From contig JALBUN010000005.1 in assembly GCA_025174535.1 (NCBI GenBank), positions 372,001-436,000 of the forward strand: DNA of 64,000 nucleotides. Reading direction: 5' to 3'. The DNA comes from Cantharellus purpuraceus (taxonomy: Eukaryota > Basidiomycota > Agaricomycetes > Cantharellales > Hydnaceae). This document shows, piece by piece, positions 6,649-64,000 of the stretch. Within the stretch, counting starts at the first letter, position 1, and every line of letters starts with the position of its first letter. A model generated the notes under the pieces. It searched no databases and was not told the DNA's origin. It worked only from the letters and a program-made list of their open reading frames with translations. A program made the position numbers and the translations under genes.

Positions 6649-7383
6649 TGTTACATCCTGTAACACCAAGTCAACTCTGGACCTCCATCTCCTTCATCTC
6701 CATCTCCTTCATCTCCATCTCCTTCATCTCCATCTCCTTCATCTCCATCTCCTTCATCTCCATCTCCTTCATCTCCATCTCCTTCATCTCCATCTCCTTC
6801 ATCTCCATCTCCTTCATCTCCATCTCCTTCATCTCCATCCCTGTCAACTCCACCTCTGTCAACTCCACCTCCATCCCCATCAACTCCATTATTGTTCTCC
6901 CTATAAGTAGTTTCTTCTTATGGGTTACAACAAACCTCCTTCTTTTATATTGTTTAGTTTTAGTTTGGACTTGGGTCCAAACTTGGAACTCCTTTCTGTG
7001 TTGTACTCCATATCTGTCCTATTGTCTTATTGTTTTAGTTTCAGCACCCAATTCTCCACATACTTATATGGCCTACTCTCTGTCTATTACAGTAGTTCAT
7101 ATATCAACCAAATTTGCCCCATCAACTTGGTTGCTAGCTTCTTGACAAGTTGAACTCCAGATCCCTGATCCAACTCTGTACTCTGAACTCTGAAATATTG
7201 GACTGACAATCTGAGGGAGTGCAACACACAAGTTGAAGCCAAGTCCACTCAATCTGACTCAATAGTATTGCTCCCACTCTGTCTCTGGTTGAACTGGAAC
7301 AGTAAAGTCCCATCTCACTCTTTACTAGCAGCTGAACTCTGGCCTTTTTCCATTGAACCCTGAGTTGTCCCAGACACTTAACA
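6649..7383 (+). repeat. LTR of family D with expanded 15-bp minisatellite
   Basis: It starts TGTTACATCC and ends CACTTAACA at 7383. At 735 bp it is longer than the 589-605 bp solo copies, mostly because of a minisatellite at 6685-6834. A TATA-like motif lies near 7065 and the R-start segment AGTAGTTCATATAT at 7091-7104. It continues into a primer-binding segment, so it is a 5' LTR and not a solo LTR, but the element body is gone. Confidence 0.88.
6685..6834 (+). repeat. 15-bp minisatellite, 10 units, inside LTR-D
   Basis: Ten consecutive near-perfect copies of CCATCTCCTTCATCT. The other LTR-D copies have about one to two units (near 481-520, 33,590-33,620 and, inverted, 27,430-27,460). The all-pyrimidine-rich strand sits in U3, upstream of the TATA box. 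Confidence 0.95.
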
Positions 7384-33540: not shown

Positions 33541-33951
33541 AGAAGGGAGATACTGTTACATCCTGTAACACCAAGTCTGATCTCTGGATCCCCTTCATCT
33601 CTATCTCCTTCATCTCCATTCTCCATCATCTCCACCTCTGTCAACTCCACCTCTGTCAACCCCAAACTCCATTATTGTTCTCCTTATAAGTAGTTTCTTC
33701 TTATGGGTTACAATAAATCTTCTTCTTTTATATTGCTTAGTTTAGTTCAGAATTGGGTCTAAACTCCAAACGCCTTTCCATGTTGTACTCCATATCCATT
33801 CTATTGTCTTATTGTTTTTAGTTTCATCATTCAATTCTCCACATACTTATATGGGCTACTCTCTGTCTATTACAGTAGTTCATATATCGACTAAGATTTG
33901 CCCCATCAACTTCTTGGTTGCTAGCTTCTTGACAAGTACCTTCTTGACAAG
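33541..33951 (+). repeat. Polypurine tract and truncated 3' LTR of D1
   Basis: The purine stretch AGAAGGGAGA at 33,541-33,550 precedes the LTR start TGTTACATCC at 33,554. The LTR runs through about 1.5 minisatellite units and the R-start segment (CAGTAGTTCATATATCG near 33,871) and stops at CTTGACAAG (33,951), where the family C LTR begins. Confidence 0.85.
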
Positions 33952-34230
33952 TGTTAAATGGTGTCTTAGTTTACACTGTTGCACAGAACTCAACCAAGTG
34001 TATTGGTTGGGCAATGTGCTGTACAGTGTGGTAGTTACTAAGTTTCTTTTTTACTATATGTGGACCCACACATGTACTTGGGTCCACTGGCTTACATAAT
34101 AACTATACATATGCACCCTATGGGCACATATATCTATCAAGAAGACAGCATTCCTTAATGGAATGCTGCATACACTAATTATAACTATCTAGCTACATAC
34201 TATAGTAAGTAAGTACCTTGGGTACTTACA
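33952..34230 (-). repeat. 3' LTR of C1
   Basis: 279 bp, plus-strand ends TGTTAAATGG and GGTACTTACA. Contains several hairpins, for example CAGCATTCC (34,146-34,154) paired with 34,160-34,168. Inserted in the D1 3' LTR after CTTGACAAG. Confidence 0.85.
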
Positions 34231-34243
34231 CCCTCCCCTTTTT
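34231..34243 (-). other. Polypurine tract of C1
   Basis: The minus strand reads AAAAAGGGGAGGG directly against the 3' LTR start TGTAAGTACC, the position at which plus-strand DNA synthesis is primed. The same tract flanks the C2 LTR at 56,755-56,767. Confidence 0.8.
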
Positions 34244-34333
34244 GAATGAGGCACAATCTCATTCAGTACCTTTTAATCATACAGCTCCTTATGAAGCTGT
34301 TCTGACAAGTCAGTGTCCATATGATCATCTTGT

Positions 34334-35964
34334 TCATATGGCTCCAGAGGGACAGCTCTCAGTTGTCCCTGATGTGGTTGCAGTATCCTCATCCACTTGA
34401 ATGGATGAGGAGGATGCAATTGCTACTGCAGCATCCCAATCAAGTTCACGATTGAGTTGATCGTGACCTAAACACTCAGCAAGAGAGCATTTAGCAGCTT
34501 TATGAGCTGCTTGAGAGACTCCCTGAGTCTTCTGCTTTTGCTTACCAACCCTGGCAGGCTGGTTAAATGCTGCTCCAGAGGCAATGCATTTAGCAAACTC
34601 CTCTAATATAGCAGCATGATCGGGGGTGATGCCCCCTGATCGTCCAAACCAGAGCACAAGCTCTAATTCAGTATGTTCTTTGGGGGAGTGATTCCCCCAA
34701 TCATACACTCCAGTGACTGAAGCGCAAAAGGTGTCACCAAGAGTTGGTGAGAACTTTTGACCACTGGTCAATAACTCCCAGTGGCTGGAATTCTGGAACA
34801 TAGTCCAGAGGTTCTTCTTAAATACAGAAGAACCCTTCTTGGGAGTGGCCTTTTGCAGCCACATCCATATGTCCACATTGGACAAGTTCATAGTACCATC
34901 CAACTCCTGTTGGATGGCCAGGGGGACCCCATTATGGTTTACTTGCCACCCCTGTATGAGGGCAAGTGTGTCTACCGGTGTGGTCAGTAGAGTGATGATA
35001 AGACTTGCATTATCAGTGTAAGCCAGCAGAGTCATTCTCTTGATGACTCTACACATTGGTACAGTCCATTCTGCAAATGGTGTGGCCAATGCTTTTTTAT
35101 GGAGTGATACAAACTCTGAAGTGTCTGTATTGCAGATGTTGAACCAGTCCACCCTGATAGGGGTGGACTTGCCCAGAGGTCATGGCAGGTGGCCAGTGAC
35201 TGCTCTGGGAGGGTCAGCCGCAGTCATGAACCATGGTGCCCATTTTTGGGAAATGATTTCCCTGCATTGGCATGCTTGAGGGCATGCCTGAAATTGTCCC
35301 AGTATTTGCAATAATTTGTACACTGGGCTTCCTCCAGTGTCTTCAATGCTGGGTCTTTTAAGGTATGGCTGGTGTCACCAGCCATATACTCCTTTCAAAG
35401 CTGATCAATCTCAGCTTTGATTTCAGATAGGGCAAACTCTTTGAGTTTTCCTGGTTGCTTAGCACCCTTGGGGATGCTAGCCAGGAGGAGACCACAATCA
35501 TGGTCATATCCTTCCCAGATTGGGTCAGTATTGTCCCAATCTTGACCTTTGAACCCTCAAGGGTTGATCTGATGCAATTTGCCCAGGAGATTGTCCTCTT
35601 TAGTGAGGTTGATCATTTCCCATGACAATGAAGCCATGGGCTGTGATGACATAATGGCAGGCAATGATTTGCCTGCCATAGCATATGATAGTGATGCTAC
35701 TGGGGCCAAGCACACCATTGTGAGCTTGGTCTTGAATGTAGGAGTTGCTCTGTCAGCAGCCTCCTTCAGTGTTTTTAACTCATCTCTGAGACAAGTTACT
35801 TTGGACTTCTCATTGTCAAGAAGTCCTTCAAGTTCTTGGACCTGTGCAAACAGGTCCAAGTTGTCCTTGTACATCTTATCATAGTCTTCACAGTAAGGTG
35901 TCACGACATCATCTTTGATGTTGCATATAAGTTGTGGCCATGCAACTCTTAATGCCCTTTCCAA
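34334..35964 (-). pseudogene. ORF-X: unassigned ORF downstream of integrase in C1
   Basis: A sense ORF following pol, unusual for Ty3/gypsy. From 35,964 leftward: MERALRVAWPQL, then a predicted coiled coil (DLFAQVQELEGLLDNEKSKV and following), a middle with KGAKQPGKLKEFALSEI and YCKYWDNFRHALKHA, then the longest open part (35,152-34,334) with VDWFNICNTD, a segment with LELVLWFGRSGG, and a Lys/Gln-rich then Ser/Thr-rich acidic tail. Breaks are three or four TGA codons and one frameshift near 35,230. I do not recognise the protein. A second copy in C2 (58,608-59,439 and 56,995-57,169) shows it belongs to the family. Confidence 0.6.
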
Positions 35965-35992
35965 GATCTTTGGGGTGCCATCTATCTGAGAA

Positions 35993-37310
35993 CTACTGTC
36001 TATGAGGTAGTTCTTGCACTTGAATCACCCCTCGAAGCTCTAAATAATCGTCTAGAGCTTGTAGGTCCTTACATGATGTGTAAGATTCCCAGGTGACATC
36101 TCCCAATGTCCATAGAACTTGAAATTCAAGTTCTTTACCGCTTATCCATCGATGAGTGATGATTTCATCGACAAGCCACTCCTGCTCATTGTCGTTCCCA
36201 AAGTTGTAAAATGACTTTGCTTCCTGTTTTGGGAATCTCATCTCATCATTTGGCACATATGGTCAAATGAGACTGACATGGAACATAGGTGTAATACACC
36301 TACTAGTCAGTTCTGGTGGCAATTCCAGTGTCACCATTGAAGCTTTATTATGGGCTTTGATTATTTTATAGGGCCCAATATACCTGGGCACTAGTTTGCT
36401 GGTTCTACCCTTAGGTAGAGTCAAGTTTTTCATTGAGAGGTAGACTTTGTCACCTCTCTGGAAGGTTGGGCCTTCCTGATGTTTCTTATTGGCATGAAAC
36501 GTCTGAGCAACACGACTTTCTATAATCATGTCATGCACCTCTAGCAGGTTCATTTGGGCCTGCTGTGTGAATCATTTGACACCCTTGAACTTGGTGTTAT
36601 TGTTCATGGGCATGCCTATCCTAGGCATATACCTGTGGTTAAGTTCAAACAGAGTAAACCCCATTGTTGAGCTTATGTTGGAGTTTAGTACAAACTCCAC
36701 CATTGGACACTTGTGTGCCCAATCTTTCTGATCACTTCATACAACGGTACGAAGTATTTGGCCAATGGAATGATTTGCTTGTTCTGTCGCTCCATCTGTT
36801 TGTGGATGGAACACTGTGGACATGAGGAGTTTCACTCCCATTATCTGCTGTAGTTCATGCCAAAAGATAGATGTGAACTTTGAATCTCGATCAGACACAA
36901 TCGAGTCTGGTACACCATGAAGGCATACAACTTCTTTAAGGAATAGCCATGCTACTCCCTTCACTGTTACACATGTGTTTGTAGGTATTATATGTACCTG
37001 CGATGTGAAGTGATTGATGACTACCAGTAGGTAGTCATAGTCATTCAATTTTGGTAATGGACCCATAAAGTCCATACCTATCAATTGCCAGGGCCACTCT
37101 GGTACTGGAAAGCTATGAAGAAGCCCTATGGGTTTCTTCGTACTGTCTTTATTCATTTGGCACTTTGCACACAAAGTGCAGAATGATTTGACATCGGTGG
37201 TCATGCCTGGCCACCAGCACAACCATCAAATGTAATTCATGGTCTTTAGTTGACCAAAATGGCCAACTACTTGGTGTGCATGGTCAATTATTATCTCTAC
37301 CAGCCTCCTC
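35993..37310 (-). pseudogene. Integrase with GPY/F and chromodomain-like module of C1
   Basis: Minus-strand order: zinc-binding Cys pair (CTLCAKCQMNK, near 37,150-37,190); core with IGMDFMGPLP, IVSDRDSKFTS and Glu in GATEQANHS (36,737-37,222); GPY/F (YIGPYKIIKAHNKAS, about 36,370); then EWLVDEIITHRWISGKELEF and VTWESYTS (35,993-36,200), which fits a chromodomain. The core is one 161-codon open stretch. Coding sequence is full of hairpins, for example GTAGTCAT-type arms near 37,017-37,040. Confidence 0.85.
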
Positions 37311-37599
37311 CCCTTCAGGAATGCTGCACAGGGTATACAGACAACATTGCATTTGTATATATTTTTGGTCCATATTAGACCATCACACCCACCAAATCAT
37401 GTGTGCTCTTTAGGTGCTTCCAGCACCTTAGAAAGGACAGTGTCCTTTCTATATGTGCCTCATACAATCTGCACAAGGTTAATCCCATGCTTGACATGGG
37501 ATCGCAATGGTGTTCTGTCATCATCTGATGACATCACTCCAACATCCTCTATTTCTTTAGAGACTTAGAATCATCATTCAATGATTCTGTTTGAATATT

Positions 37600-39136
37600 G
37601 AGTGCTTCAGCTTCTAGCGCTCTGTTTTCTTTTTTCTCAAGCAGTCACCTTCGGGTGACTGCTGCTGTCCTGATCTCAATGAACCATTCTGTGGGAAGCA
37701 GTTCTCCTTCAGGGTCAAGATGTACATCTGCACTCAGGTAGATGTAGTTGGGATAACTCTCTGTTGGGGAGTCATCAGCATAGTAGCACAATAGACAATC
37801 CATTACTTTGTTCTCTACCCCATCTATATGCAGGGTGGTGAAGTTGAAACGGGATAAGAACTCCCACCACCTAATCTGTTTAGGAGACAGGTTCTTTTGG
37901 GTCTCAAAGTATTTGAGACCCTTGTGGTCAGTTACTAGGACGAACTTTTGTCCTAGTAGCTTATCTTCCCATTTCATTAGGGCTTCAAGCATGGCTATAG
38001 TCTTGTGCTTGTGGGTCTTATAGTGCTGTTGTGCAGCACTAAATTTCTTGGATAGGACTCTGGCAGGCCAACAGGTCTGCCAATCTTTTCCTTATCCATA
38101 GACGGCTCTGACTCCAGTTTTGGAGCTGTCAGTAATAACCCAAATAGTATCAGGGTTATTGACATTGACGGGCTTCAATATTGGAGCCCTACATGCTAGG
38201 AGCTTGATGCTTTCAAAGCATTTCTCCAGCAGTGGCGTCCATAAGAATGGACAATTATTACAAGCACAACCTGATGACAGGGTTGTGTTATATCTGGCAT
38301 ATAGTGCACCAGATACTGCACTAGTCCAAGAAATCGTTGAACTTCATGGTATGATCTAGGTCATCTCCATTCTCGTATTTGCTGCATTTTATCAGTGTCT
38401 GTGTGCACACTGTGGTCATCTATTAGGTGACCAAGGCAATCCATACTTGTTGAGTATAGGTCAATCTTATTCTTGCTCAGGAACATATGTGCTTTCCTGA
38501 GCTCAGTGAATACCATCTCTAGGTGGTGTTCGTGCTTTCGTATAGTATGAGAGTACACAAATATGTCATCCAGATATACATGGATGAATCTTCCAATATA
38601 TTCTCAGAAGATGGTGGTCATGAGCTGCTGAAATGTCGAGGAGGCATTGCAGTCCCCTTGCTGCATGACTTGACTGACAAATGTCCCCAAGACAGTCACA
38701 AACACCGTTTTGGGTATATCCATCAGTCTGACACATCTGTTCATACACCTCAGACATATTGAGTTTAGATTGATATGTACAGCAGGCAACATTGTGTCTA
38801 ATGTTGTCCTGATTGGGAAAGGGTGTTATGTCCTTCACCGTATTATCATTCTGTTCACACAAGTTGAACATGGTGTGGAGCTTCCCATTTTTCTTGGGAA
38901 TGCATAGCATTGGTACAGCCTGCTGGGCTGTAGCTGATACCCACCATTTAGCAATGGTGTATTGCAGGACTTTCTCTGAAAGTTCTGCTTGGTATTGCTC
39001 TGGACACCTAGGCAAGCAATAATGTATTCGCTTGTCAGGATCCATGAGATCAATCTTGTGGTTAACTTCCCTACATGGGGGAAGTTCTAAGGGTATGCTG
39101 CCAAATAGGTCAGCGTACTTTTCTTTCCATTGATCC
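37600..39136 (-). pseudogene. Reverse transcriptase and RNase H of C1
   Basis: RT spans 38,360-39,136: EQYQAELSEKV, VPMLCIPKKNGKLHT, the catalytic YLDD-type motif near 38,570-38,585 in a shifted frame, then HHLEMVFTELRKAHM. RNase H lies at 37,645-37,992 with VLVTDHKGLKYF and RWWEFLSRFNF. Several frameshifts. At 39,137 a solo LTR-L interrupts the N-terminal end, and the upstream part resumes at 40,574. Confidence 0.82.
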
Positions 39137-40568
39137 TGTTTTGGAACCCGCAAAATTATGGTGTTAGGGCAAACTCTAAATCACCACAATTCCGTGAATG
39201 AACAGCTGAGAAGAATATCAAACCCTGCTGCAGCACAACTCCAGAAACGATTTAACGTTTGTACTTTGGTTACAATCCTTTGTATTGGTCAATGCAGACT
39301 ATACGCAGAAAAGTAATACGTTTCTTAGCAGCAAGAAATGAATAAGACTTCCAGAGTCTAGAGTTCACGGACGCTTAGGGGTCCAGATATTCCAAAAAGA
39401 TGGGAATGCACTTAGAGGCTAAAGGAAGTAGGTGGATGAATCCAACCGTCCAACCAGTGGCACTCAGAAGCGGGTAACAGCAATGTGTGAAGTAGTCTAG
39501 CAACTGCTTCACACGAGTTCAAGCTTCTAATGCTCTGCAAAGGCAGTACACACTAGTAACTTAAACAAGAGCACTAATGGCAGGACTATCGACAGACAAT
39601 CTCACCCTGTAGATTAGTAGTCACGTGAGGCAGATACTACACTCACGCCCAAAGCAGGAATATCACTACTTCAAGTGCAATCAAGTACAGTTACACAACT
39701 GTAAAAGATCCTTGAACTGGTAATCAACAGTTACTGAGATAGAGGATGACACTGTATGTCACTCTAGTCACACTGGTGTGCAGAAGATGGGTAGAATATG
39801 ATGATATGTTATTCTTTCAGAGGCAGAATGGCCTCCTTATATATTGTATTTACAGGGGCTGACTAATGCTTCTGGAATATTCTACCTATTAATAGATGGA
39901 AACTACTGGAAGGTTGTGGAAGGTGGAAGAAAGGGGTAGAATATTCCAAGCCAATCACAGGATCTGATCACAGCACTAACACTGATCAGGAGCTGAATAA
40001 TGGTTCTGGAAAGTTCTATCTAATAATAGAGGGAAACAGCTAGAATGTTATGGAAAGGGGTAGAATATTCCAAGGCAATCACCTGATTTGATCACCCATC
40101 AGCTGATCTGATCCCTGAACTAGGCACTGATCAGGCAAAAAGAAGGGTGTCCACCCTGTTTTCTGCACTGGTTTGGACAGCCATGGATAGCCACATGTCA
40201 GGTGATGATCTGCACGGAAAATAGTGCCCTGAGAGGCTGTGGTTGTTAAGTTACAAAATATTTATTGATCAGAGACATCTGAGCTTGAATTCAGGCCAAA
40301 TGCCTGGTCCAAAAGGGGAGAGCCGGCTGTGCAAAGGTTTGTGGGTGCCTATGGGTCCACAACTGTAGCACAGCAGAAATAAATGATTCTGAGCCGAGTT
40401 CTGCATGGAATATTCCCGAAAAAATATGGAAAAATAGAGAATATTTGAATAAGTCCATTCCAGGTACAAGCATCAAATATATGCTGATATTTAGGAATGG
40501 AAAAGCAAAGAATAGCACATTGGTGCTGCATAAATGGAATTTGATAGGGAAAAGGTGGTTCCCATACA
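39137..40568 (-). repeat. Solo LTR-L (1432 bp) in C1 pol, target duplication GATCC
   Basis: Plus-strand start TGTTTTGGAACC, end GGTTCCCATACA, flanked by GATCC at 39,132-39,136 and 40,569-40,573. Nearly identical to the inverted copy at 30,621-32,052, so both are recent. The TATA box (CCTTATATA at 39,835-39,843) marks minus orientation. The uninterrupted target is seen in C2 at about 62,400. Confidence 0.93.
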
Positions 40569-40573
40569 GATCC

Positions 40574-41345
40574 CTCAACTGAGGGATCTGACCAGCCATG
40601 TAAGTGGTTGATCCTTCACAAGACAAAGCTATTTGCATCGTGTTCTTATTTAGATCCTCCATTGGGGGGTCCTTTACTGAGTCTAGTCCTTCTTTTAGGA
40701 AGGACTGTGTTGTGGGTAGCTTGTGTTTAGAGTTACCCCCTTGGCGTCATTTATTCTGCCAACACTCTTTCTTCTTATTGAGTTTATACCCCATGATGGG
40801 GTATGAAGAGCATCAGTATTATGCTCTTCATTGGTGGGGACTTCTTCAGTTCCCATCATGATTTGGCCTGGGCCAGCGAAGTCCAGGCATATTCCTAGCT
40901 TTCATAGGAATGGGGTACCAAGTATTACGTTGTAATACTCAATGTTGGTGACATCGAAATATTCTTCAATGTTCCAACTACCAAACTTTATGGTAGTGTG
41001 AGTACCATAATTTATGGTACTCCTACTCCCAATGCATGCTAATTGCAGTGCGATGGGTTGCTCTAGTGCAAATGTCTTCATACCTGTCACGCATGTGAAT
41101 TCAGGGGATATCATTATCCCCTCACTTCCACTGTCTAATAGACAGTGGGCTAGTGTTCCACCAATCTCCCAATACCCAGAGATTGTTTTGTTGTCTATGT
41201 GTGGTCTATCTGGTTGTGCTGTCGACATCTGTTGGCTCCTATGATTATACATAGGTTTGGCTGATCTGTCAACACTGACAGCAGCTATATGCAGCTGTCG
41301 TGATTCCCTGCTTCTTTGGAATCTTGTTGCACTACAGAAACGCAC
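40574..41345 (-). pseudogene. Protease region of C1
   Basis: The minus-strand open stretch 40,902-41,345 contains the retropepsin motif LLDSGSEGIMIS near 41,120-41,150 and the tail VILGTPFL. 40,574-40,900 is the linker to RT. Palindromes persist here (AGTATTAC paired with GTAATACT, 40,921-40,939). In C2 about 299 bp of this region is deleted. Confidence 0.82.
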
Positions 41346-41369
41346 TGCATAGGTGTGTCTCAGTGGAAT

Positions 41370-43057
41370 TCAATCATTGGATTGAATTTGTATCGCATTA
41401 GAGTGATACATTGGCATAGCCTCCCTTTTGGGGGCATCATCTTGGTCGTCCCATTTGTATGGGGTGACCTCCTCATCCCATTCATAAGCCACTTCTATAG
41501 CTGGTATTTTTTCGTCTAGATGGTCCTTGGGATCATCCATTGCTTCTTCATGTTCTCCCTCTATCAGGGAGAATCCATCTACCTTATCCTCCACTATGTG
41601 TGAGGACATGTCCTTTCGGACCACAGCCAACCTTACATTGCCCTTTAATTTGGGGCAGCTGGGTTGCATGTGACCTGTCTGGCCACATTCGTAGCACACA
41701 ACATTACTAGTAACATTGTTCGATTGATCACCACTTGTGTGTGCTGGTGGTTTCAATGGATAATTACCCTTGAAAAGGTAATTGTTGGAATTGGACCCAG
41801 AGCTTCCATTATAGGGTTCCAACCTTGACACACTTGCTTGTTGTGAGTGTGTGTTGGGAGCCATATACACATGTCCTTGGGGTGTGGGTCAACTCCCCAT
41901 ATTCATCATACCAGTAGTTCTATTGACTACTGGTCTATGGGTTGAGGAGGATGCGTTAGTCATGTTCTCTGGGCATTGCATACCATGGTGGTATTGCGTC
42001 ATTGCAGTTACAAACCTCTTCCTGTATGTGTACGTGTCTGGTGGCATTATCATGTGACCTGCATACTTATCTAGGTCATTTATTAATTTGTGAATGGTCC
42101 TTTGACCCTGTATTACAGAGTCAAACTTATTTGACGCATGGTGATGCATCAGGGTGTGTAGGAATTTATGCTGCAATCCTTGGATTGCAGTTTCCAGGGT
42201 CCAGTCTTGGACTGCCCTATTGTAGTGTTCTACATTCCTGTAGAACCATTCCTGGGCCTCACCTTTAAGGTGAGTGCCCTAAGTACAATAGCTGAAACTT
42301 TGTACTTGATGGCCCTAGAAGATTATTCATCTTCAGCCATCGTAGCATACCTGCTACAAAGATCTCAAACTGTTCAAGATCTGCACCTCCTGCATATTGT
42401 TCAGGAGGTGATACTTTAATGCCCACAGACTTCTCTGGGTCTGTATCTCTATTATCGACTATGGCTACTTGCACCATGTGAGTAATGCCATCAATAGGAT
42501 CAATTGTGTCCAATTGATCTGGTATGCCTTGACCTTCTAAGGTCAATGGCACTGATTGTTCCCTGTTATGGGGAACGTCTTCTTGAGATACCCATTGGGT
42601 ATCTCATTGCTCATAGCAGGTGTCTCCTGAAAGGCCCACCACTCATATGTGCTGATAACTGTTCAGCACATGTTGTGACTGTCAGTTTAAGTTGACAGCC
42701 ACATTGAGCTCTTGCTGGGGCTGCTGCTCTCTAAACAGCTGGCCAAGTTCCTGCTCTGCATGTTTAGCCTTCCATTTAAGGGCTAATCTATGTTTACAAG
42801 AAGCCTCAACTTCTTGTTGTTTCCATAGCTCAATCTCTTGATTGAGCTCCTTTGCCATAGATTGAGGAGTTTCCTCTTCAATCTGGATCAGTAATCCTTG
42901 CCTCACAGGGATTACTGGGTCTCTAATTCCCTCCATTGGGGGAATTTCATTTCCTCTGTCTAACTGATCATTTGGTTGGATCCTCTCACCCCAGGGAGGT
43001 CCAGACTCTCTGGATTCAGATTCCTGTCAAGAATCTGATCTTCAGCAATGTGACTTG
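41370..43057 (-). pseudogene. Gag C-terminal part with zinc knuckle of C1
   Basis: The CCHC knuckle CYECGQTGHMQPSC lies near 41,660-41,700. Its N-terminal side reads HKFLHTLMHHHASNKF, LINDLDKYAGHMIMP and YRKRFVTAM, typical of a retroelement Gag core. The upstream part (42,265-42,936) has SPPEQYAGGADLEQFEIFVAGMLRWL and a Gln/Lys-rich helix. The acidic tail after the knuckle (41,370-41,600) is large. Frames are broken. Confidence 0.8.
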
Positions 43058-43881
43058 TGTCAAGAATTTATTCAAGTAATATTACAATCTATTGGAGCAA
43101 GAAGGGGGAGTTTTATGATAAGGAAAAGTTGTGAAAAGTTTGGGAATTTTTTGATTAAGGGATGAGGAGGAGGTGTTTTTCGATTTTATTTTGTGAGCCA
43201 TCCTTTCGTTCTACGGGGGTGGCTACTACTCAAAAAGGGAGGTATTATGATGATTTTCATTCGTCATAAACCTCAAGTCAAACGGGTAAAAATTCCTTTC
43301 TCTATAAAAAGTTTTTCCCCATGACATCACATATTATCAGTATCCACATCATTTCTTTTATCATATGTTTCAATCTTACTAAAAGGCTTTTTTATCATGT
43401 GATTGTCAAATTGTATATTAACTACAACTGTGTACGAGTATCAAAAAGGAGATTCACTACTTTTAATCCCTTCCAAGCTGCAAACAAACAGCTTGTGTCA
43501 ACTTTCTGTCGTTCCTGGAATAACTCCTAAACGACCTATTCTATTTGAAATCTTTTGCATATCCCATTAGGATATTGCATCAACTATTTCTATCTCAAAT
43601 TACGAACGATTTGGATCATTACATCCATTTCTATTAAGCAAACACTTTTTCGAAGTGTTGCTATTCCCATTTCTGCTCAAATATTTTGCAGAAGTCCCAG
43701 TTCTTAACCAAATATTCTGATATTTGGTAACATTACTCTACTAGACAACACCTTTCCATCGACCCCGCATATATCTGCATCCTTGCAGTAATTGCTCCCC
43801 TATTCAAAAATCTACTTCGCCACCATCCCTCACCTTCATCTTACACTCACCCACAACACCCCTCCATATCTTTTCTTAACA
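43058..43881 (+). repeat. Solo LTR-P (824 bp), target duplication ACTTG
   Basis: Starts TGTCAAGAATTT, ends TTTCTTAACA, flanked by ACTTG at 43,053-43,057 and 43,882-43,886. Contains TCTATAAAAAG near 43,303 and shares blocks with 29.69-30.47 kb. Inserted within the 5' coding region of C1. Confidence 0.88.
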
Positions 43882-44449
43882 ACTTGTGTCACTCAGAGTT
43901 CTCTTGGAGTGATTTTAACATCGTTCCTAGCTCTGCTATTTGCTGCCCCATAGTAGTGGCAGCATGCCCTGCTTTGGCAGCCATCTTAGCTGCCTGAGCA
44001 CTAGCTTCACTAATGCTCTTCATCTCATGTTGATTACGCATGAGTTGTTCACTCAATCTTGCAATTGTCCTGTGGGTTTCATGCTGCTCCATGCTGCGTG
44101 ATTCCCTAGTAGAAGTATTGCTACTTCTACTTGTGCTTGTATATTGAGCACATTCCTTTCCTTTAGGAGCATTGGAGACAGTATATGACTGTCTCCTCCT
44201 TTCTTCTCTAATCAAAGAACCACTCAATGAAGGGTTCTTGTTCAACAGACGATCTATTGTGCAATCATCTGTGCGGTCTTGCAATTGTGGCGACTCTCTT
44301 CTAGAGTCTTCCTTATGAGAAGTCTCTGCAACTTCTCTAGGGTCTAGTTCCCCTTCCTGGGAGCTTCTGCTGCTGGCTACATGCCGCCATTCATCATTTA
44401 TGATGTCCTGGGTGCTGCCAGCACAACTCACTCTACTGTGAGTCATCAT
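43882..44449 (-). pseudogene. N-terminal Gag or leader ORF of C1
   Basis: 186 codons from 44,449 (MMTHSRVSCAG). It is Ser/Arg/Glu-rich with a predicted helix near its end (LMRNQHEMKSISEASAQAAKMAAKAG). Its position between the 5' LTR and the Gag core suggests the Gag N-terminus. No specific domain recognised. Confidence 0.6.
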
Positions 44450-44640
44450 TATGATGACTCCTTTCTTTCTTCTATCTTTGTAGGCTAACTAAGTTAGTCT
44501 ACTAGTTGCTCACTTATATGAGTGACTGGGGGGGTTGGTATATGTCTGTACACCAGCAACGGCTGGTTTTCTAGTATTGACTAGAAAACTTCAATAATGA
44601 GGAAGAATCAATTGATTCTTCCTTTGGAAGTTCAAAAAAG

Positions 44641-44911
44641 TGTAAGTTGGTGTCTTAGTTCACACTGTTACACAGAACTCAACCAAGTATATTGGTTGTG
44701 TGATGTGCTGTACAGTGTGGTTGTTGACTAAGGTCTGTCTACTATATGTGGACCCACATGTGTACTTGGGTCCACTGGCTTACATAATAACTAATACATA
44801 TGCACCCATAGGGTGCATATATCTACCAAGAAGACAGCATTCCTTAATGGAATGCTGCATACATTAATTATAATTATATACTATAGTAAGTAAGTACCTT
44901 GGGTACTTACA
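44641..44911 (-). repeat. 5' LTR of C1
   Basis: 271 bp; minus strand starts TGTAAGTACC and ends CCAACTTACA, so the ends form a short inverted repeat. About 90 percent alike to 33,952-34,230 by eye. No complement of the downstream sequence (CTTTTTTGAACTTCC) is found in the LTR, so self-priming as in D and A is not evident. Confidence 0.85.
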
Positions 44912-56829: not shown

Positions 56830-57169
56830 CCAGTCAGCGTCTATATGGTCATCTTGTTCATATGGTTCCAGAGGGGGACAGCTCTCAGTTGTCCCTGACA
56901 TGGTTGTGGTATCCTCATCCACTTGAATGGATAAGGAGGATGCAATCGCTACTGCAGCATCCTGATTGAGTTCACAATTAAGTTGATCATGACCTTAACA
57001 CTCAGCAAGAGAGCATTTAGCAGCTTTATGAGCTGCTTGGGAGACTCCCTGAGTCTCCTGCTTTTGCTTACCAACCCTGGCAGGCTGGTTAAATGCTGCT
57101 CCAGAGGCAATGCATTTAGCAAACTCCTCTAATATAGCAGTGTGATTGGGGGTGATGCCTCCTGATTGT
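56830..57169 (-). pseudogene. C-terminal part of ORF-X in C2
   Basis: Minus strand reads ILEEFAKCIASGAAFNQPARVGKQKQ and QGVSQAAHKAAKCSLAEC, colinear with C1 34,480-34,620. Interrupted at 57,170 by LTR-M and continued at 58,584. Confidence 0.75.
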
Positions 57170-58583
57170 TGACGAGCCAGGACGCATCGAGGACGCATAT
57201 CGAACCACTCTGACAGTCCAACTCCACCAGCGTCTTTTCGTATCAACTTTTAAATAGCGCCGCAACTCCCTCTCCACCTCAGTCTCTAATTCTAGCCATC
57301 AATTGTCACTCGTGTTTCATTGCCATCAATCATTATCAGCCTTCTATTCACACCAATCCTTTCATCATCATTCACATGGCTTCCCATTCTATTCCCCTCT
57401 CCAACATCACTTCTAATAATACGTCACACTGGTCTCTGGACACAGAGGACTATCAAAAATATGCCGAGCTCCACGGGCATGTTAAGCCACCTCCACGTGT
57501 CAAAATACTTCCAAAACTCTTTCAACATCCAAGATCCCCACCATGTCTCTCTTATGCCATTGGTGATCCTATATTCTTTCACAATTCCGTTGAACCATAT
57601 ACATTCCTCAACATTTCACCTCTATATCGTAACACGGATAGAAGAGTCAAACGTGAGGTAGAATTTCAGTCACCATCGCTGACCTATCCTCCCACTTCAA
57701 TCCAACTCAGGTTACATCGTGTCAGGCAAAGGGACCGAATACTCTTGGAACGGGATACCATATGGAGACGGATCACTAAGACAATAAGGAGTATTTGTTG
57801 TGGATGCTGACTGAAGTCCTCATGTGACTCAGGGTCAATTTACCTTTGGAGCCATAGGGAAGATGGTATTGGTGGACATTTCTATTGTTCTTTTATATGA
57901 CTCACCCCTGTTTCATCTTTTAATTCATTCATACACGACTTACTCATCCTTGTTCTATTTTTGGTTCTTTTATTACTCATCACCTCCTATTCTTACAAAG
58001 ATTACCCCTATCTGTCATTTCATTTCTCCATGATTTCCCCATTAGTAGTTCAACTTCACACGCTTCGTCAGCTGGCTTGATCAGCATTTCTTGCATCATA
58101 TTGCATCATTTGCTCCTCATATTGTGTTGTTGTGCCCTGGGGATTTGTATATAAAAGGGTGCTAGTTTTCGCCTTTGGAATCAATCAACAAGTTTTCAGC
58201 CAACACTCTAAAGTCAAAGTCCACGCTCTAAGTCTACACTCTACACTCTACATCACAATCCATCATCTCTACACTGAGGTAAAACACCTTGGTTCAACGA
58301 TCAGATTTCCCTCCACCACTGAGAGGTTGCTTCTCTTGAAACCAGCTTTCGCGTACCTCCCAACCGGGCTCTGCATTGTCATCCAGTCACAGAGCACGAT
58401 CAGCCATCGGGACCGACCTTTAGCTCCCATCCCCATCCAACCACAGAGCACTATCCCACTTCCCTGTTACTTACCCCTCACCCTGATTGATCTTTGGAGT
58501 GCTGAACAACTGCATTACACACCGTCTGTTTGCTAGGACCGTTGCGCGCAGGCTTATAGGATCTATTCCTTAAGCGAACTGAC
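57170..58583 (+). repeat. Solo LTR-M in C2 ORF-X, target duplication ATCGT (both copies CpG-mutated)
   Basis: Starts TGACGAGCC, ends GAACTGAC (or GACA). The left flank is ATTGT (57,165-57,169) and the right flank ATCAT (58,584-58,588). C1 has ATCGT at this site, so the two copies carry opposite-strand CpG transitions. With TG...CA ends the duplication would be 4 bp. TATATAAAAGGG near 58,148 indicates a plus-oriented promoter, with an ORF upstream of it. Confidence 0.82.
57376..57810 (+). CDS. 144-codon ORF in the upstream part of LTR-M, function unknown
   Basis: Runs from the ATG at 57,376 (MASHSIPLSN) to a stop at 57,808. Basic C-terminal half with an Arg-rich stretch (RLHRVRQRDRILLERD). 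No recognised domain. The second LTR-M copy keeps the first about 75 codons with few changes (60,597-60,884, minus) before a frame change. The position upstream of the LTR TATA box would place it in U3, where some retroelements have accessory or 3'-extended ORFs. Coding status is unproven. Confidence 0.4.
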   Translation: MASHSIPLSNITSNNTSHWSLDTEDYQKYAELHGHVKPPPRVKILPKLFQHPRSPPCLSYAIGDPIFFHNSVEPYTFLNISPLYRNTDRRVKREVEFQSPSLTYPPTSIQLRLHRVRQRDRILLERDTIWRRITKTIRSICCGC

Positions 58584-59510
58584 ATCATCCAAACCAGAGC
58601 ACAAGCTCTAATTCAGTATGTTCTTTGGGGAAGTGATTCCCCCAATCATACGCTCCAGTGACTGAAGCATGAAAGGTGTCACCAAGAGTTGGTGACCACT
58701 GGTCAATAATCCCCAGTGGCTGGGATTCTGAAACATAGTCCAGAGGTTCTTCTTAAATGCAGAAGAACCCTTCTTGGGAGTGGCCTTTTGCAGCCACATC
58801 CAGATGTCCACATCAGACAAGTTCATAGTACCATCCAACTCCTGTTGGATGGCTGGGGGGACCCCATTAGGGTTTACTTTCCACCCCTGTATGAGGGCAA
58901 GTGTGTCTACTGGTGTGGTCAGTAGAGTGATGATAAGACTCACATTATCAGCACAAGCCAGCAGAGTCATTCTCTTTGAGTTTGCCCAGTTGCTTAGCAC
59001 CCTTGGGGATGCTAGCCAGGAGGAGACCATGATTGTGGTCATATCCTTCCCAGATTGGGTCGGTGTCATCCCAATCTTGACTCTCAAACCCTCAAGGGTT
59101 GACCTGAGGCAATTTGCTCAGGAGATAATCCTCTTTGGTGAGATTGATTGTTTCCCATGATGATGAAGCCACAGGCTGTGACAGCATAATGGCAGACAAT
59201 GATTTGCCTGCCATAGCACACAATAATGATGCTACTGGGGCCAAGCGCACCATTGTGAGCTTGGTCTTGAATGTAGGGGGTGCTCTATCAGCAGCCTCCT
59301 TCAGTATTTTTAACTCGTCTCTGAGATGAGTTACTTCAGACTTCTCATTGTTGAGAAGTCCTTCGAGTTCTTGGACCTGCACAAACAGGTCCAAGTTATC
59401 CTTGTACATCTTACTGTAGTTCTCAAGATAAGGTGTCATGACATCATCTTTGATGTTGCGTATAAGTCACAGCCACGTGACCCTTAATGCTCTTTCCACT
59501 GAAGCGGTGG
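58584..59510 (-). pseudogene. N-terminal and middle parts of ORF-X in C2
   Basis: 59,092-59,439 is colinear with C1 35,557-35,900 (NLDLFVQVQELEGLLNNEKSEV coiled coil). 58,608-59,087 matches C1 34,690-35,060, with an internal deletion of about 400 bp that removes the middle segment. Extra sequence not in C1 begins near 59,500. Confidence 0.75.
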
Positions 59511-59748
59511 AAAGATATAGTCGGCCTCCATTTTGGGCCTTGATTAAGTGCAACACATATGTGTTGCACTTGTTACACCTGTGAGGGTGATGGATGGCAG
59601 CACTGTTGGTTCACTTATGAAATAGATCCTATAAGCTTGTGTGCAACGGTCCTAGCAAACAGACAGTGTGTAATGCAGTTGTTCAGCACGCCAAAGAACA
59701 ATCAGGTTGAGGGGTAGGGGTAGCACTGAGTAACAGGAAAGTGTAATA

Positions 59749-59862
59749 GTGCTCTGTGGTTGAAGGAGGATGGGGAGTGAAAAGGGACAGTCCAGATGGT
59801 TGATCGTGCTCTGTGGTTGGAGGAGGATGGGGAGCAAAAAGGGACAGTCCAGATGGTTGATC
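59749..59862 (+). repeat. Tandem 57-bp duplication inside LTR-M
   Basis: Two consecutive 57-bp units (59,749-59,805 and 59,806-59,862), each starting GTGCTCTGTGGTTG, followed by a partial third. The other LTR-M has a single unit near 58,385-58,450. Confidence 0.9.
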
Positions 59863-60596
59863 GTGCTCTGTGACTGGATGACAATGCGGAGCCCGGTTGG
59901 GAGGTACGCGAAAGCTGGTTTCAAGAGAAGCAACCTCTCGGTGGCGGAGGGAAATCTGATCGTTGAACCAAGGTGCTTTACTTCAGTGTAGAGCTGATGG
60001 ATTGTTGTAGAGTGTAGAGCGTAGACTTAGAGCATGGACTTTGACTTTAGAGCATTGGCTGAAAACTTGTTGATTGATTCCCAAGGTGAAAACTAGCGCC
60101 CTTTTATATACAAATCCCCAGGGCACAACGACACAATATGAGGAGCAAATGATGCAATATGATGCAAGAAATGCTGATCAAGCCAGCTGACGAAGCGTGT
60201 GAAGTTGAACTACTAACGGGGAAATCATAGAGAAATGAAACGACGGATAGGGGTAATCTTTGTAAGAATAGGAGGTGATGAGTAATAAAAGAACCAAAAA
60301 TAGAACAAGGATGAGTAAGTCGTGTATGAATGAATTAAAAGATGAAACAGGGGTGGGTCATATAAAAGAACAATAGAAATGTCCACCAATACCATCTTCC
60401 CTACGGCTCCAAAGGTAAATTGACCCTGAGTCACATGAGGACTTCAGTCAGCATCCACAACAAATACTCCTTATTGTCTTAGTGATCCGTCTCCATATGG
60501 TATCCCGTTCCAAGAGTATTCGGTCCCTTTGCCTGACACGATGTAACCTGAGTCAGATTGAAGTGGGAGGATAGGTTGGTGATGGTGACTGAAACT

Positions 60597-60884
60597 CTAC
60601 CTCACATTCGACTCTTCTATCTGTGTTACGATATAATGCTGAGGAATGTTGCTGAGGAATGTATATGGTTCAATGGAATCATGAAAGAATATAGGATCAC
60701 CAATGGCATAAGAGAGACATGGTGGGGATCTTGGATGTTGAAAGAGTTTTGGAAGTATTTTGACACGTGGAGGTGGCTTAACATGCCCATGGAGCTCGGC
60801 GTATTTTTGATAGTCCTCTGTGTCCAGAGACCAGTGTGACATATTAGAAGAGATGTTGGAGAGGGGAATAGAATGGAAAGCCAT
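60597..60884 (-). pseudogene. Counterpart of the LTR-M ORF in the inverted copy
   Basis: Minus-strand ORF beginning MAFHSIPLSN at 60,884. It shares long identical stretches with 57,376-57,810 (HWSLDTEDYQKYAELHGHVK) and then changes frame near TFLSNI. It ends 48 codons earlier than its counterpart. Confidence 0.5.
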
Positions 60885-61096
60885 GTGAATGATGATGAAA
60901 GGATTGGTATGAATAGAAGGCTGATAATGATTGATGGCAATGAAACACGAGTGACAATTGATGGCTAGAATTAGAGACTGAGGTGGAGAGGGAGTTGCGG
61001 CACTATTTAAAAGTTTGGTACAAAAAGATGCTGGCGGAGTTGGACTGTCAGAGTGGTTCGATATACATCCTCAATGTGTCCTGGCTTGTCAGCGCT

Positions 61097-61650
61097 ACCG
61101 TGCCATCTGCCAATTTTCCAGGTCATCTCATCTTGGTGACCTCTGATCTCTGATCATCTCTGCAGCACTTGTTGCCAGTGCTGCCACTGTGGAAGTTTGT
61201 TCAACTTCCATTGGATGCTTGTCCTGAGCATCCATCATCTCCCTTCTGAGAGATGACAATTTGATGGAGGGGGGGGGGGGGGTTGTGGTGGTTTGAAGAA
61301 ACACCACTAGCCTTTTATGGCTGAGCTCAAAAATTCTTTATTGAGAATTTTTCCAGTGACTATGTCACATGGGTGTAACCTGATTATTGCTTAACCCTTT
61401 CATACTACTATGAGTAGCACAACAGTTTTTTCTGCCATTGAGCTGCCTGTTATGGTAGCTCTATCCTTATCTAGGAACTACCATTAATCAAGGTGGGAAG
61501 TTCTTTATCACTTATCCATCAATGAGTGATGATTTCATCGACGAGCCACTCTTGCTCATCATCATTCCCAAAGTCATCAAATGAATTCACTTCCTGTTTT
61601 GGGAATCTCATCTCATCATTTGGCACATACAGTCGAATGAGACTGACATA
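61097..61650 (-). pseudogene. C2 spacer and chromodomain-end remnant
   Basis: 61,097-61,500 has hairpin-rich sequence with a run of 14 G (61,269-61,282) and no gene. 61,500-61,650 matches C1 36,125-36,275, the chromodomain-like end of pol. At about 61,650 it joins sequence homologous to C1 38,380, deleting integrase and RNase H. Confidence 0.7.
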
Positions 61651-62778
61651 TTCACTGCATTTTATCAGTGTCTGTGTGCATGCCTTGGCCATCTATTAGG
61701 TGACCAAGGCAATCCATACTTGTTGAGTATAGATCAATCTTATCCTTGCTCAGGAACATATGTGCTTTCCTGAGCTCAGTGAATACCATCTCTAGGTGGT
61801 GTTCGTGCTTTCGTATAGTATGAGAGTACACAAATATGTCATCCAGATATACATGGATGAATCTTCCAATATATTCTCAGAAGATGGTGGTCATGAGCCG
61901 CTGAAATGTCGAGGGGGCATTGCAGTCCCCTTGCTGCATGACTTGACTGACAAATGTCCCCAAGACAGTCACAAACACCGTTTTGGGTATATCCATCAGT
62001 CTGACACATCTGTTCATACACCTCAGACATATTGAGTTTAGATTGATATGTACAGCAGGCAACATTGTGTCTAATGTTGTCCTGATTGGGAAAGGGTGTT
62101 ATGTCCTTCACCGTATTATCATTCTGTTCATACAAGTTGAATATGGTGTGGAGCTTCCCATTTTTCTTGGGAATGCATAGCATTGGTACAGCCTGCTGGG
62201 CTGTAGCTGATACCCACCATTTAGCAATGGTGTATTGCAGAACTTTCTTTGAAAGTTCTGCTCAGTAGTGCTCTGGACACTTAATCAAGTGATAATGTAT
62301 TCACTTGTCAGGATCCACAAGATTAATCTTGTGGTTAACTTCCCTAAATGGGGGAAGTTCTAAGGGTATGCTGCTGAATAGGTCAGCATACTTTTCTTTC
62401 CATTGATGCCTCAAGTGAGGGATCTGACCAGCCATGTAAGTGGTTGGTCCTTCACAAGATGAAGCTATTCATGTTGTGCTCTTATTTGGATCCTCCATTG
62501 GGGGTCCTTTACTGAGTCTAGTCCTTCTTCTAGGAAGGACTGTATTGTGGGTAGCTTGTGTTTAGAGTTACCCCCTTGGCATCATTTATTCCAATACTCC
62601 TTCTTCATATTGAGTTTATACCCCGTGACAGGGTATGAAGAGCATTGGTATTATGCTCTTCATTGGTGGGGACTTCTTCAGTTCCTATCATGATTCAGCC
62701 TGGGCCATTAAAGCCCAGGCATATTCCTAGCTTTTGTAGGAATGGGGTACTGAGTATTACATCGTAATACTCAATGTT
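61651..62778 (-). pseudogene. Reverse transcriptase remnant of C2
   Basis: Colinear with C1 38,380-39,136 and 40,574-40,946 and without the LTR-L insertion, so it gives the empty target site. Contains MLCIPKKNGKLHT and NQDNIRHNVACC and is about 95 percent like C1 by eye. It joins gag at 62,778 through a deletion of the protease (AATGTT directly followed by TATACATAGG). Confidence 0.82.
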
Positions 62779-64000
62779 TATACATAGGTTTGGCTGATCT
62801 GTCAATGCTGACAGCAGCTATATGCAGCTGTTATGATTCCCTGCTTCTTGGAAATCTTGTTGCACTACAGAAACGCACTGCATAGGTGTGTCTCAGTGGA
62901 ATTTGATCATTGGGTTGAATTTGTATCACATTAGAGCGATACATTGGCATAGCCTCCTTTTCAGGGGCATCATCTTGGTCGTTCCATTCGTATGGGGTAA
63001 CCTCTTCATCCCATTCATTAGTTACTTCTATAGCTTGTATTTTTTCATCTAGATGGTCCTTGGGATCACCCATTCCTTCTTCATGTTCTCCCTCTATTGG
63101 GGAGAATATGTCTACATTGTCCTCCACTATGTGTGAGGACACATCCTTTTGGACTGCACCCAACCTTATGTTGCCCTTTAGTTTGGGGCAGCTGGGTTGC
63201 ATGTGACCTGTCTGGCCACATTCATAGCACACAATGTTACTAGTAACATTGTTCGATTGATCACCACTTGTGTGTGCTGGTGGCTTTGATTGATAATTAC
63301 CCTTGAAAAGGTAATTGTTGGAATTGGACCCAGAGCTTCCATTATGAGGTTCTAACCTTGACACACTTGCTTGTTATGAGTGTGTGTTGGGAGCCATATA
63401 CACATGTCCTTGAGGTGTGGGTCAACTCCCCATCCTCCTCAACCTATAGACCAGTAGTCAATAGAACTACTGGTCTATGGGTTGAGGAGGATGTGTTAGT
63501 CACGTTCTCTGGGTGTTGCATACCATGGTGGTATTGCATCACTTCCTCTATCATTTGAGCAGTTTTGTACAACTGCTCAATACTGCTAAACTCAGCAGTA
63601 AAGCCCTTCTTGAGGACTTCTTGTCTCAGAGGTTCACGCATTGCAGTTACAAACCTCTTCCTGTACATGTATGTGTCCAGCGGCATTATCATGTGACCCA
63701 CATACTTATCTAGGTCATTCATTAATTTGTTAATGGTCCTTTGACCCTGTATTACAGAGTCAAATTTATTTGACACATGATGATGCATCAGGGTGTGTAG
63801 GAATCTACACTGCAATCCTTGGATTGCAGTTTCCAGGGTCCAGTCTTGGACTGCCCTATTGCAGTGTTCTATATTCCTGTAGAACCATTCCTGGGCCTCG
63901 CCTTTAAGGCGAGTGCCTAAGTATGATAGCTGAAACTTTGTACTTGATGGCCCTAGGAGGTTATTCATCTTCAGCCATCATAGCATACCTGCTACAAAGA
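62779..64000 (-). pseudogene. Gag of C2, partial at right edge
   Basis: Zinc knuckle CYECGQTGHMQPSC near 63,190-63,230, acidic tail, and Gag core 63,444-63,968 (FLHTLMHHHVSNKF, LMNDLDKYVGHMIMP, YRKRFVTAMREPLRQEVLKKGF). It retains a segment (about 63,545-63,640) that C1 has lost. A long perfect hairpin at 63,434-63,490 is not present in that form in C1. Confidence 0.82.

Follow-up and report, generated by a model that had tools for sequence, protein, structure and literature searches.

A Ty3/gypsy retrotransposon family of Cantharellus purpuraceus packed with short perfect hairpins that may record template switching

The window, a 64,000-nucleotide stretch of Cantharellus purpuraceus contig JALBUN010000005.1 (positions 372,001 to 436,000), contains an element, family C, that its sequence identifies as a Ty3/gypsy LTR retrotransposon coding on the minus strand. 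Two minus-strand LTRs with TG...CA ends bound it, a 3′ LTR (in sense) at 33952..34230 (5 hairpins, counted on 33949-34230) and a 5′ LTR at 44641..44911 (6 hairpins), which are 88% identical across 285 aligned columns. Immediately before the 3′ LTR in sense lies AAAAAGGGGAGGG (34231..34243, minus strand), which we take to be the polypurine tract. Pfam matches give the domain order gag, protease, reverse transcriptase, RNase H and integrase on the minus strand, with capsid and protease under the curated cut-offs. The gag region combines a zinc knuckle (PF00098) with a Ty3-type capsid (PF19259, under cut-off) at 41370..42278, followed by a putative aspartyl protease at 40902..41369 (PF13650, under the curated cut-off). 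A YLDD-bearing reverse transcriptase (38331..39136), frameshifted near 38,737 in the window copy, is placed between protease and RNase H (37645..38091; PF17917, 1.2e-18). Beyond these are an integrase with H2C2 and rve core (36737..37225; PF17921, and PF00665 for rve, under its curated cut-off), a Tf2-1-like SH3 domain at the integrase end (36263..36571; PF24626, 8.8e-14) and, between the integrase region and the 3′ LTR, a hairpin-rich open frame of 281 amino acids without a family match (34334..35179), all on the minus strand.

Two nested stretches interrupt this copy. The insert at 39137..40568 (1,432 bp) has a 100% complementary copy at 30621-32052 and holds one hairpin (arm at least 7, loop at most 11) wholly within it; the stretch at 43058..43881 is missing from the same site in each of five copies that cross it (L010, L011, L012, L015 and L024). 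Both were excluded, leaving 8,707 bp of family C counted as three stretches. A second copy, broken and likewise hairpin-rich, occupies 56872..64000 on the minus strand. By eye, the flanks of the window copy, which is old and was the one copy examined in this respect, show no matching 5-mer as a target-site duplication, and Rfam and tRNA scans across the window returned zero matches. The window copy carries K in place of the RNase H glutamate that we take to be catalytic; a defective RNase H was rejected as a family trait because this E is retained in 17 of 22 aligned rows (the D of TDH in 16 of 22). Nothing unusual was seen in the aligned reverse transcriptase and RNase H motifs.

The window copy contains 105 perfect hairpins with arms of at least 7 bp and loops of 0-11 nt, compared with a mean of 6.66 and a maximum of 14 in 200 dinucleotide shuffles. 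The excess was steeper for longer arms (69 versus 1.85, maximum 6, at 8 bp or more; 41 versus 0.50, maximum 3, at 9 bp or more) and ended sharply at a loop of 12 nt: with loops of 12-23 nt the counts were at chance level, at 9 versus 6.25, 1 versus 1.58 and 0 versus 0.41 for the three arm classes. Arms thus reach about 12 bp, loops 11 nt and whole hairpins about 31 nt. One such hairpin, at 35364..35386, has 11-bp arms around a single T. Hairpins recur about every 80 nt, or about 12 per kb, genes included, and are densest in the LTRs (18-22 per kb, compared with 10-13 per kb in the remaining parts). In 1-kb bins from 34 to 44 kb (arm at least 7, loop 0-15) we counted 18, 12, 9, 12, 11, 5, 8, 9, 14, 5 and 13, the nested inserts falling in bins 39, 40 and 43 kb; shuffles gave about 1 per kb, the 33 bins before 33 kb held 38 in total, and the second copy, at about 56-64 kb, was raised too (0-13 per bin). 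The earlier note had described the element as packed with perfect inverted repeats along its full length, which proved an understatement, and all nine hairpins it quoted are exact, those at 34,386 and 37,429 being longer by one pair (arms of 10 and 11 bp). Its further claim that other families lack this density holds for the loci examined; the control here was everything outside C, so that families A, D and E were compared as the whole non-C window (29 hairpins in 33.9 kb, 0.86 per kb, and 18 in 11.8 kb, 1.53 per kb; arm at least 7, loop at most 11).

The packing is common to all 20 other fetched copies and to a diverged subfamily. C-homologous DNA held 762 hairpins in 103,848 bp (7.3 per kb; this count alone includes 0.6 kb of C sequence that the window copy lacks), compared with 59 in 103,172 bp (0.57 per kb) of flanks and inserts of the same loci. 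Three sister-element loci of the same genome (L029, L032 and L033, possibly one family), 46-48% identical to C in integrase, had 3 hairpins in 10,403 bp and no such packing. Outside this genome, relatives turned up as metagenome proteins only, the best at 81% identity; scans of viral_contigs and genome_contigs for their DNA yielded none. Synonymous-codon shuffles yielded a mean of 3.7 hairpins and at most 9 in 200 shuffles, against 37 in the real sequence, and direct repeats, counted as a control, were not enriched. These results, with the dinucleotide shuffles and the presence of the packing in 20 of 20 other copies, refute chance, composition, codon use or an assembly artefact as its source.

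Comparison of copies revealed loop inversion, a signature of template switching. At four hairpins the loop is flipped in some copies, three times exactly and once with CpG decay. The loop TTC at 36612..36628 reads GAA in copy L035, which also has TACT for AGTA in the integrase core (37017..37038); TTCG at 37640..37663 reads TGAA, a decayed CGAA, in L020 and L027; and the 7-nt loop TCTATTG at 41910..41934 reads CAATAGA in the second window copy. Among 1,431 row-loops from 92 hairpins, 7 had at least two transversions with length unchanged, and 3 of these 7 were exact reverse complements, including one loop of 7 nt. In a separate scan of clustered changes, 3 of the 17 that fell in hairpin loops were exact flips, compared with none of the 39 at other places (Fisher 0.025); counting the CpG-decayed flip for loops gives p 0.0016, a value for which decayed flips were scored in loops only and related rows are not independent. 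Near-duplicate rows were kept in these scans; of the 33 clusters lying in neither loops nor arms, two come from L010 and L011. Most loops are identical across copies save for CpG decay, so that flips are rare, and systematic flipping was rejected.

The two strands had the same folding-energy excess (z averaging -4.1 and -4.3 in 42 windows), and G-U pairs were not favoured over A-C. In the window copy, 35 one-mismatch stems had at least 8 pairs, compared with 54 perfect ones (at least 8 pairs, loop 3-11); CpG decay accounts for part of the one-mismatch stems in family C. Equal over-folding of both strands and the lack of a G-U preference argue that this is not ordinary sense-RNA structure serving packaging, translation or stability, a reading that we consider very improbable. 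In its favour are the sense-strand z of about -4.3 and a slight excess of A in sense loops (p 0.03); against it, one-mismatch stems of at least 7 pairs contained 26 A-C and 14 G-U mismatches in C and 0 and 4 in rRNA (small numbers), inspection of the listed loops by eye showed no common motif, and E. coli rRNA itself has just 0.22 hairpins per kb (arm at least 8, loop at most 11) compared with about 7 in C. The earlier note had proposed RNA folding on a genome scale, serial mutation that makes hairpins, or the two together; as ordinary sense-RNA structure the first is disfavoured by these data, and the second gains some direct, if limited, support from the four flipped loops, yet has to accommodate uncompensated and somewhat constrained arms.

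Arm homogenisation, that is, compensated change towards perfect arms, was not seen between the subfamilies, and single copies gave about one clean case. None of the 41 non-CpG pairs that changed between subfamilies was compensated, which suggests that the hairpin-making process was rare during their divergence; 17 compensated listings all fell at CpG-variable columns, and decay of two CpGs would look no different there. Single copies, near-duplicate rows included, had 17 non-CpG double changes compared with 423 that were unpaired. Judged by eye, about one of these double changes was clean (40685, in L025), the rest lying mostly at insert borders. Together these counts argue that homogenisation was not running at a useful rate. 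Compensation within the main family was likewise rejected, as shared non-CpG arm variants break pairs (55 copies broken, 3 kept), as were pairs private to one copy, of which there were 75 listings among 455 hairpins and which on inspection by eye were for the most part CpG self-pairs or artefacts of junctions. The copies compared offered no clear case of a new hairpin born through a multi-base change. The prediction that the 5′ arm is the copied one was right in 8 of 10 untied hairpins of a first set of 13 but failed on 29 hairpins (14 versus 9, 6 ties, p 0.40).

Arms changed less than their surroundings. Between subfamilies, 25 of 909 and 23 of 726 arm columns had changed (CpG-variable columns dropped); for loops the figures were 12.2 and 8.9%, and for positions outside about 10%. 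Outside YR contexts, 28 arm changes were found where 49.0 were expected, and 9 versus 19.9 at third codon positions; with stratification by base and codon class the arm rate was 0.54 of neutral, which hints at selection. Transversions alone numbered 11 versus 21.4 (P 0.010) in all pieces, and 11 versus 15.5 or 9 versus 13.3 (P 0.15 each) with at least two or at least three subfamily rows. Dead copies also showed fewer arm changes (0.77 of expectation), though not significantly fewer arm transversions (107/17,585 versus 203/29,071, p 0.26); after scaling by 0.77, 28 changes compare with 39.6 (P 0.033) and 9 at third positions with 15.8 (P 0.049). In a descriptive comparison, hairpin codons deviated less from relatives in all four domains. 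For the arm-variant, subfamily-change, compensation and dead-copy analyses, L011, L015 and a second L019 block were dropped as near-duplicates; alignments below 5 to 9 rows, depending on the analysis, were also dropped, and the expected-change tests left out YR-context columns. Under a simple two-state model, the arm constraint would sustain about 50% pairing or less at equilibrium, so selection of this strength, if it worked through point mutation, would fail to maintain perfect stems. Although arms change less than loops, they probably change too quickly for the stems to be the product of selection alone.

Our leaning, at somewhat less than even confidence, is that the ancestor of C gained its short perfect palindromes by template-switch mutation while the element was being replicated, with reverse transcription the likeliest step. 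The growing strand would fold back onto a short imperfect inverted repeat, copy one arm from the other and then return, making a perfect hairpin in one step; codons would limit the survivors, protein selection retaining only the hairpins that it tolerated. Because family C alone is affected among everything examined, the process is better placed in element-specific copying than in chromosomal replication, with reverse transcriptase the probable agent. It counts in favour that the arm lengths lie within the 7-16 bp found for template switching in genes of yeast, in a study restricted to arms of at least 7 bp (PMC8604942). Against this reading weigh the uncompensated arm changes, the want of a clear hairpin birth, the direction prediction that did not hold in the larger set, the small number of flips, the reduced change in arms and the ordinary reverse transcriptase and RNase H motifs. 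Hairpin making would have taken place mainly before the two subfamilies split, and weak constraint on the hairpins after their origin is the best reading of the arm data. A little more tentatively, reverse transcription of C may palindromise the element's own genome, fold-back switching having written hairpins into LTRs and genes as far as the code allows; the hairpins would then be a mutational drive that reinforces itself and would have no function.

The main rival, possible though rather doubtful, is selection that favours local structure in both strands. Perfect hairpins fold equally in sense RNA, antisense RNA and single-stranded cDNA, and could, in a hypothetical role, block sense-antisense annealing and small-RNA targeting, with arms of less than about 12 bp being too short to serve as Dicer substrates. 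Strand symmetry fits this account, as does the disuse of G-U, because G-U on one strand is A-C on the other, and so do the lower arm divergence between subfamilies and the smaller deviation of hairpin codons. It is weakened by the fainter transversion-only signal, by the reduced arm change that dead copies show too, by an implied strength too low for perfect stems and by the absence of non-CpG compensatory change. A birth by template switching in a past epoch followed by weak selection that kept some hairpins would join the loop flips with the scarcity of arm changes; it rests on the same evidence as the pure readings and inherits the weaknesses of each half, and we regard it as unlikely.

On either account, family C offers a natural record for testing selection against one-step template switching as the origin of perfect stems, since a single element provides around a hundred sites, in many copies and in two subfamilies. 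The hairpins may be the trace of copying that made the sequence of an element palindromic. If the cause is mutational, there is a reverse transcriptase strongly prone to fold-back synthesis, and palindromes can spread through coding DNA without function; if it is selection, an element that folds both strands throughout would represent a new way of evading silencing.

A search of open-licence papers, preprints being outside its scope, found no hairpin-packed retrotransposon. RNA viruses with genome-scale ordered RNA structure show a folding excess across their genomes, coding sequence included; C differs from them in that its folding is strand-symmetric and shows no preference for G-U, its loops have a sharp upper limit and its stems are perfect. 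Mitochondrial genes of Nematomorpha contain perfect coding inverted repeats of up to 284 bp, for which repeat conversion or template switching was proposed (PMC6649704). Like C, they carry perfect inverted repeats across conserved coding sequence and disfavour one pairing phase; that their imperfect repeats are not in excess has been listed as a further likeness, although C does have one-mismatch stems, and C differs in its arms of at most about 12 bp, its nuclear LTR setting and the inclusion of the LTRs (PMC6649704). In yeast, arm homogenisation and spacer inversion are the signatures of inverted-repeat template switching, with events in 39 genes of one species (PMC8604942); C shares spacer inversion without arm homogenisation, and its hairpins, about 12 per kb, are those of a single element family. 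Template switching can create RNA hairpins, a one-step route to perfect stems like that proposed for C, described for chromosomal RNA genes (PMC8794818) and suggested here for a whole retroelement genome. In domain order, LTRs and polypurine tract, C resembles Ty3/gypsy elements with a Tf2-1-like SH3 domain; compared with the sister Ty3/gypsy loci read in the same genome, it alone has the hairpins.

The window copy of family C, a Ty3/gypsy LTR element coded on the minus strand at 33,952–44,911, had been described in the earlier note as packed with short perfect inverted repeats. The nine hairpins quoted there are all exact, and hairpin density in C lies far above that of dinucleotide shuffles. 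With the nested stretches 39,137–40,568 and 43,058–43,881 removed, the remaining 8,707 bp hold 105 perfect hairpins with arms of at least 7 bp and loops of up to 11 nt, compared with a mean of 6.66 (maximum 14) in 200 dinucleotide shuffles of this copy. At the same loop limit, there are 69 hairpins with arms of at least 8 bp (shuffle mean 1.85, maximum 6) and 41 with arms of at least 9 bp (0.50, maximum 3). The excess ends sharply: for loops of 12–23 nt, the observed and shuffled counts at these three arm thresholds are 9 versus 6.25, 1 versus 1.58 and 0 versus 0.41. The longest arms sit at short loops, with a total span of at most 30 nt in a scan allowing loops of up to 20 nt; allowing for CpG decay, arms reach 12 bp and spans around 31 nt, besides a background of long-loop pairs. 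LTRs carry 18–22 hairpins per kb and other parts 10–13, and no enrichment of direct repeats was found in C.

Its domains and termini identify C as a Ty3/gypsy element. Minus-strand Pfam matches cover the zinc knuckle, RNase H, integrase and a Tf2-1-like SH3 domain, together with capsid, protease and rve, these last three scoring below their curated cut-offs; a reverse transcriptase carrying YLDD sits between the protease and RNase H matches. The element is framed by a polypurine tract and by LTRs (279 and 271 bp) that have TG...CA ends. An Armillaria ostoyae homologue at 47% is among the matches listed (the best 120 of 554, 172 and 2,067; 360 in total), which makes an agaricomycete host likely. 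The longest open frame in this copy (281 aa, 34,334–35,179), between integrase and the 3′ LTR, had no match in Pfam or NCBIfam. Immediately inside the 5′ LTR lies a 24-nt perfect palindrome (44,600–44,623; 12-bp arms, no loop), close to what we take to be the expected position of the primer-binding site.

The 40.15-Mb genome (50 contigs) contains at least 40 C copies (40 of 121 candidates scored). Variation shared between copies is mostly CpG-like, and CpG decay is strong (447 CpG-variable sites across 6,456 alignment columns, counting overlaps), which suggests methylation-driven mutation after silencing; we take the copies to be dead remnants descended from a burst. Two near-identical copies on different contigs (C17:690300–700200 and C49:13200–23100) share internal breakpoints, reflecting either segmental duplication or duplicated contig ends. 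The 1,432-nt insert at 39,137–40,568, with one hairpin (arm ≥7, loop ≤11) wholly inside, has a 100% complementary counterpart at 30,621–32,052, 7 kb away, so one of them is recent; fragments 78–99% identical to it occur in several other C loci. Inside the second, broken window copy, 57,170–61,091 forms a large interrupted inverted repeat of six matched pieces, 86–98% complementary (outermost 57,170–57,254/61,007–61,091, innermost 58,472–58,584/59,604–59,716). A tandem array of 15-bp units at 6,638–6,922 also occurs at 436–585.

Hairpin richness is a family-wide trait. In each of the 20 other copies examined, C-homologous DNA is enriched: with arms of at least 8 bp and loops of up to 11 nt, every kb holds 5.4–9.2 hairpins. 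The total, which includes the second window copy and 0.6 kb of C missing from the first, is 762 hairpins in 103,848 bp (7.34 per kb), versus 59 in 103,172 bp (0.57 per kb) for the remainder of the same loci. A second subfamily of five loci, with inner regions 77–86% identical to the window copy, is also rich (12, 39, 20, 24 and 16 hairpins in 1.8, 6.3, 4.0, 3.5 and 2.2 kb, flanks and inserts included). Three sister-element loci, possibly one family (46–48% integrase identity), are not (2 in 6,001, 0 in 2,001 and 1 in 2,401 bp). Because chromosomal neighbours and these sister elements are unaffected, the hairpins stem either from the way the element itself is copied or from selection acting on it.

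Coding by-product was ruled out: 3,873 nt of coding sequence hold 37 hairpins versus a mean of 3.7 (maximum 9) in 200 synonymous-codon shuffles. The register pairing third positions together is the rarest (7 of 37, versus 15 and 15), as might be expected if codons restrict which hairpins form, and shuffles lean likewise. The earlier note had offered RNA folding, hairpin-making mutation or both. Ordinary RNA structure is disfavoured, as folding is equal on the two strands (mean z-scores −4.14 and −4.33 over 42 C windows; −0.13 and 0.04 in 70 control windows; −0.51 on both strands in 17 windows of a sister element) and G-U is not favoured. One-mismatch stems of at least 7 pairs in C comprise 14 sense G-U, 26 A-C and 24 other; the counts are 4, 0 and 5 in Escherichia coli 16S and 23S rRNA, whose 4,446 nt hold a single hairpin (arm ≥8, loop ≤11). 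Non-CpG pairs broken between subfamilies number 10, 23 and 8, and private non-YR arm changes in single copies 28, 46 and 52. Hairpin-making mutation gains direct but limited support from inverted loops, described below.

The subfamilies split with proteins under selection, differing outside hairpins by 7.0% at first, 5.1% at second and 19.7% at third codon positions. Arms differ at 25 of 909 columns with main-family ascertainment and 23 of 726 with the other, compared with about 10% outside hairpins and 12.2 and 8.9% in loops; because each ascertainment hides one branch, neutral arms would be expected to differ roughly half as often as sites outside hairpins. Outside YR contexts, 28 arm changes were observed versus 49.0 expected (third positions 9 versus 19.9; stratified by base and codon class, 28 versus 51.8). 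Transversions alone gave 11 versus 21.4 (P = 0.010), or 11 versus 15.5 and 9 versus 13.3 when two or three subfamily rows were required (P = 0.15 each). Dead copies also show fewer private arm changes than expected (122 versus 159.4, ratio 0.77; transversions only, P = 0.26). After correction by 0.77, a deficit remains (28 versus 39.6, P = 0.033; third positions 9 versus 15.8, P = 0.049), and some constraint on arms is therefore likely, but modest. Under a two-state mutation–selection model such an arm rate would maintain around 50% pairing or less at equilibrium, with 95% requiring a rate near 0.07; selection this weak, working through point mutation, would probably not have built the stems.

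Among 1,431 row-loops of 92 hairpins, seven loops had at least two transversions at unchanged length, of which three are exact reverse complements. Two of these occur in one second-subfamily copy (L035), where TTC reads GAA and AGTA reads TACT; the third, in the second window copy, has CAATAGA in place of TCTATTG. In a separate scan, 3 of 17 clustered changes inside loops were exact flips, compared with 0 of 39 outside them (P = 0.025); with TTCG to TGAA included (a decayed CGAA, present in L020 and L027), the loop count rises to 5 of 17 (P = 0.0016), decayed flips having been sought in loops only. Spacer inversion is a known outcome of template switching between inverted-repeat arms (PMC8604942). 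Compensated change of the arms, a further mark of such switching, was absent among 41 non-CpG changed pairs between subfamilies, all 17 compensated listings lying at CpG-variable columns; single copies gave about one clean case among 17 listed, most, by eye, at insert borders. In a directional test of arm copying on 29 hairpins, the predicted bias towards one arm was not significant (14 versus 9, with 6 ties; P = 0.40).

We tentatively favour an origin by template switching, in which a nascent strand would fold back, copy one arm from the other and return. Such copying would yield perfect stems in one step and would account for the loop flips and the short span as well as for strand symmetry and the lack of G-U preference, but it offers no explanation for the quiet period between subfamilies. 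Selection acting on both strands, which we consider the next most likely reading, accommodates strand symmetry and the modest arm constraint but leaves the perfection of the stems unexplained. Less probable still is a combination of template-switch origin and selection. Our literature search found no hairpin-packed retrotransposon; the nearest case found is in hairworm mitochondria, for whose coding palindromes the authors likewise consider conversion or template switching as alternatives to a function (PMC6649704).
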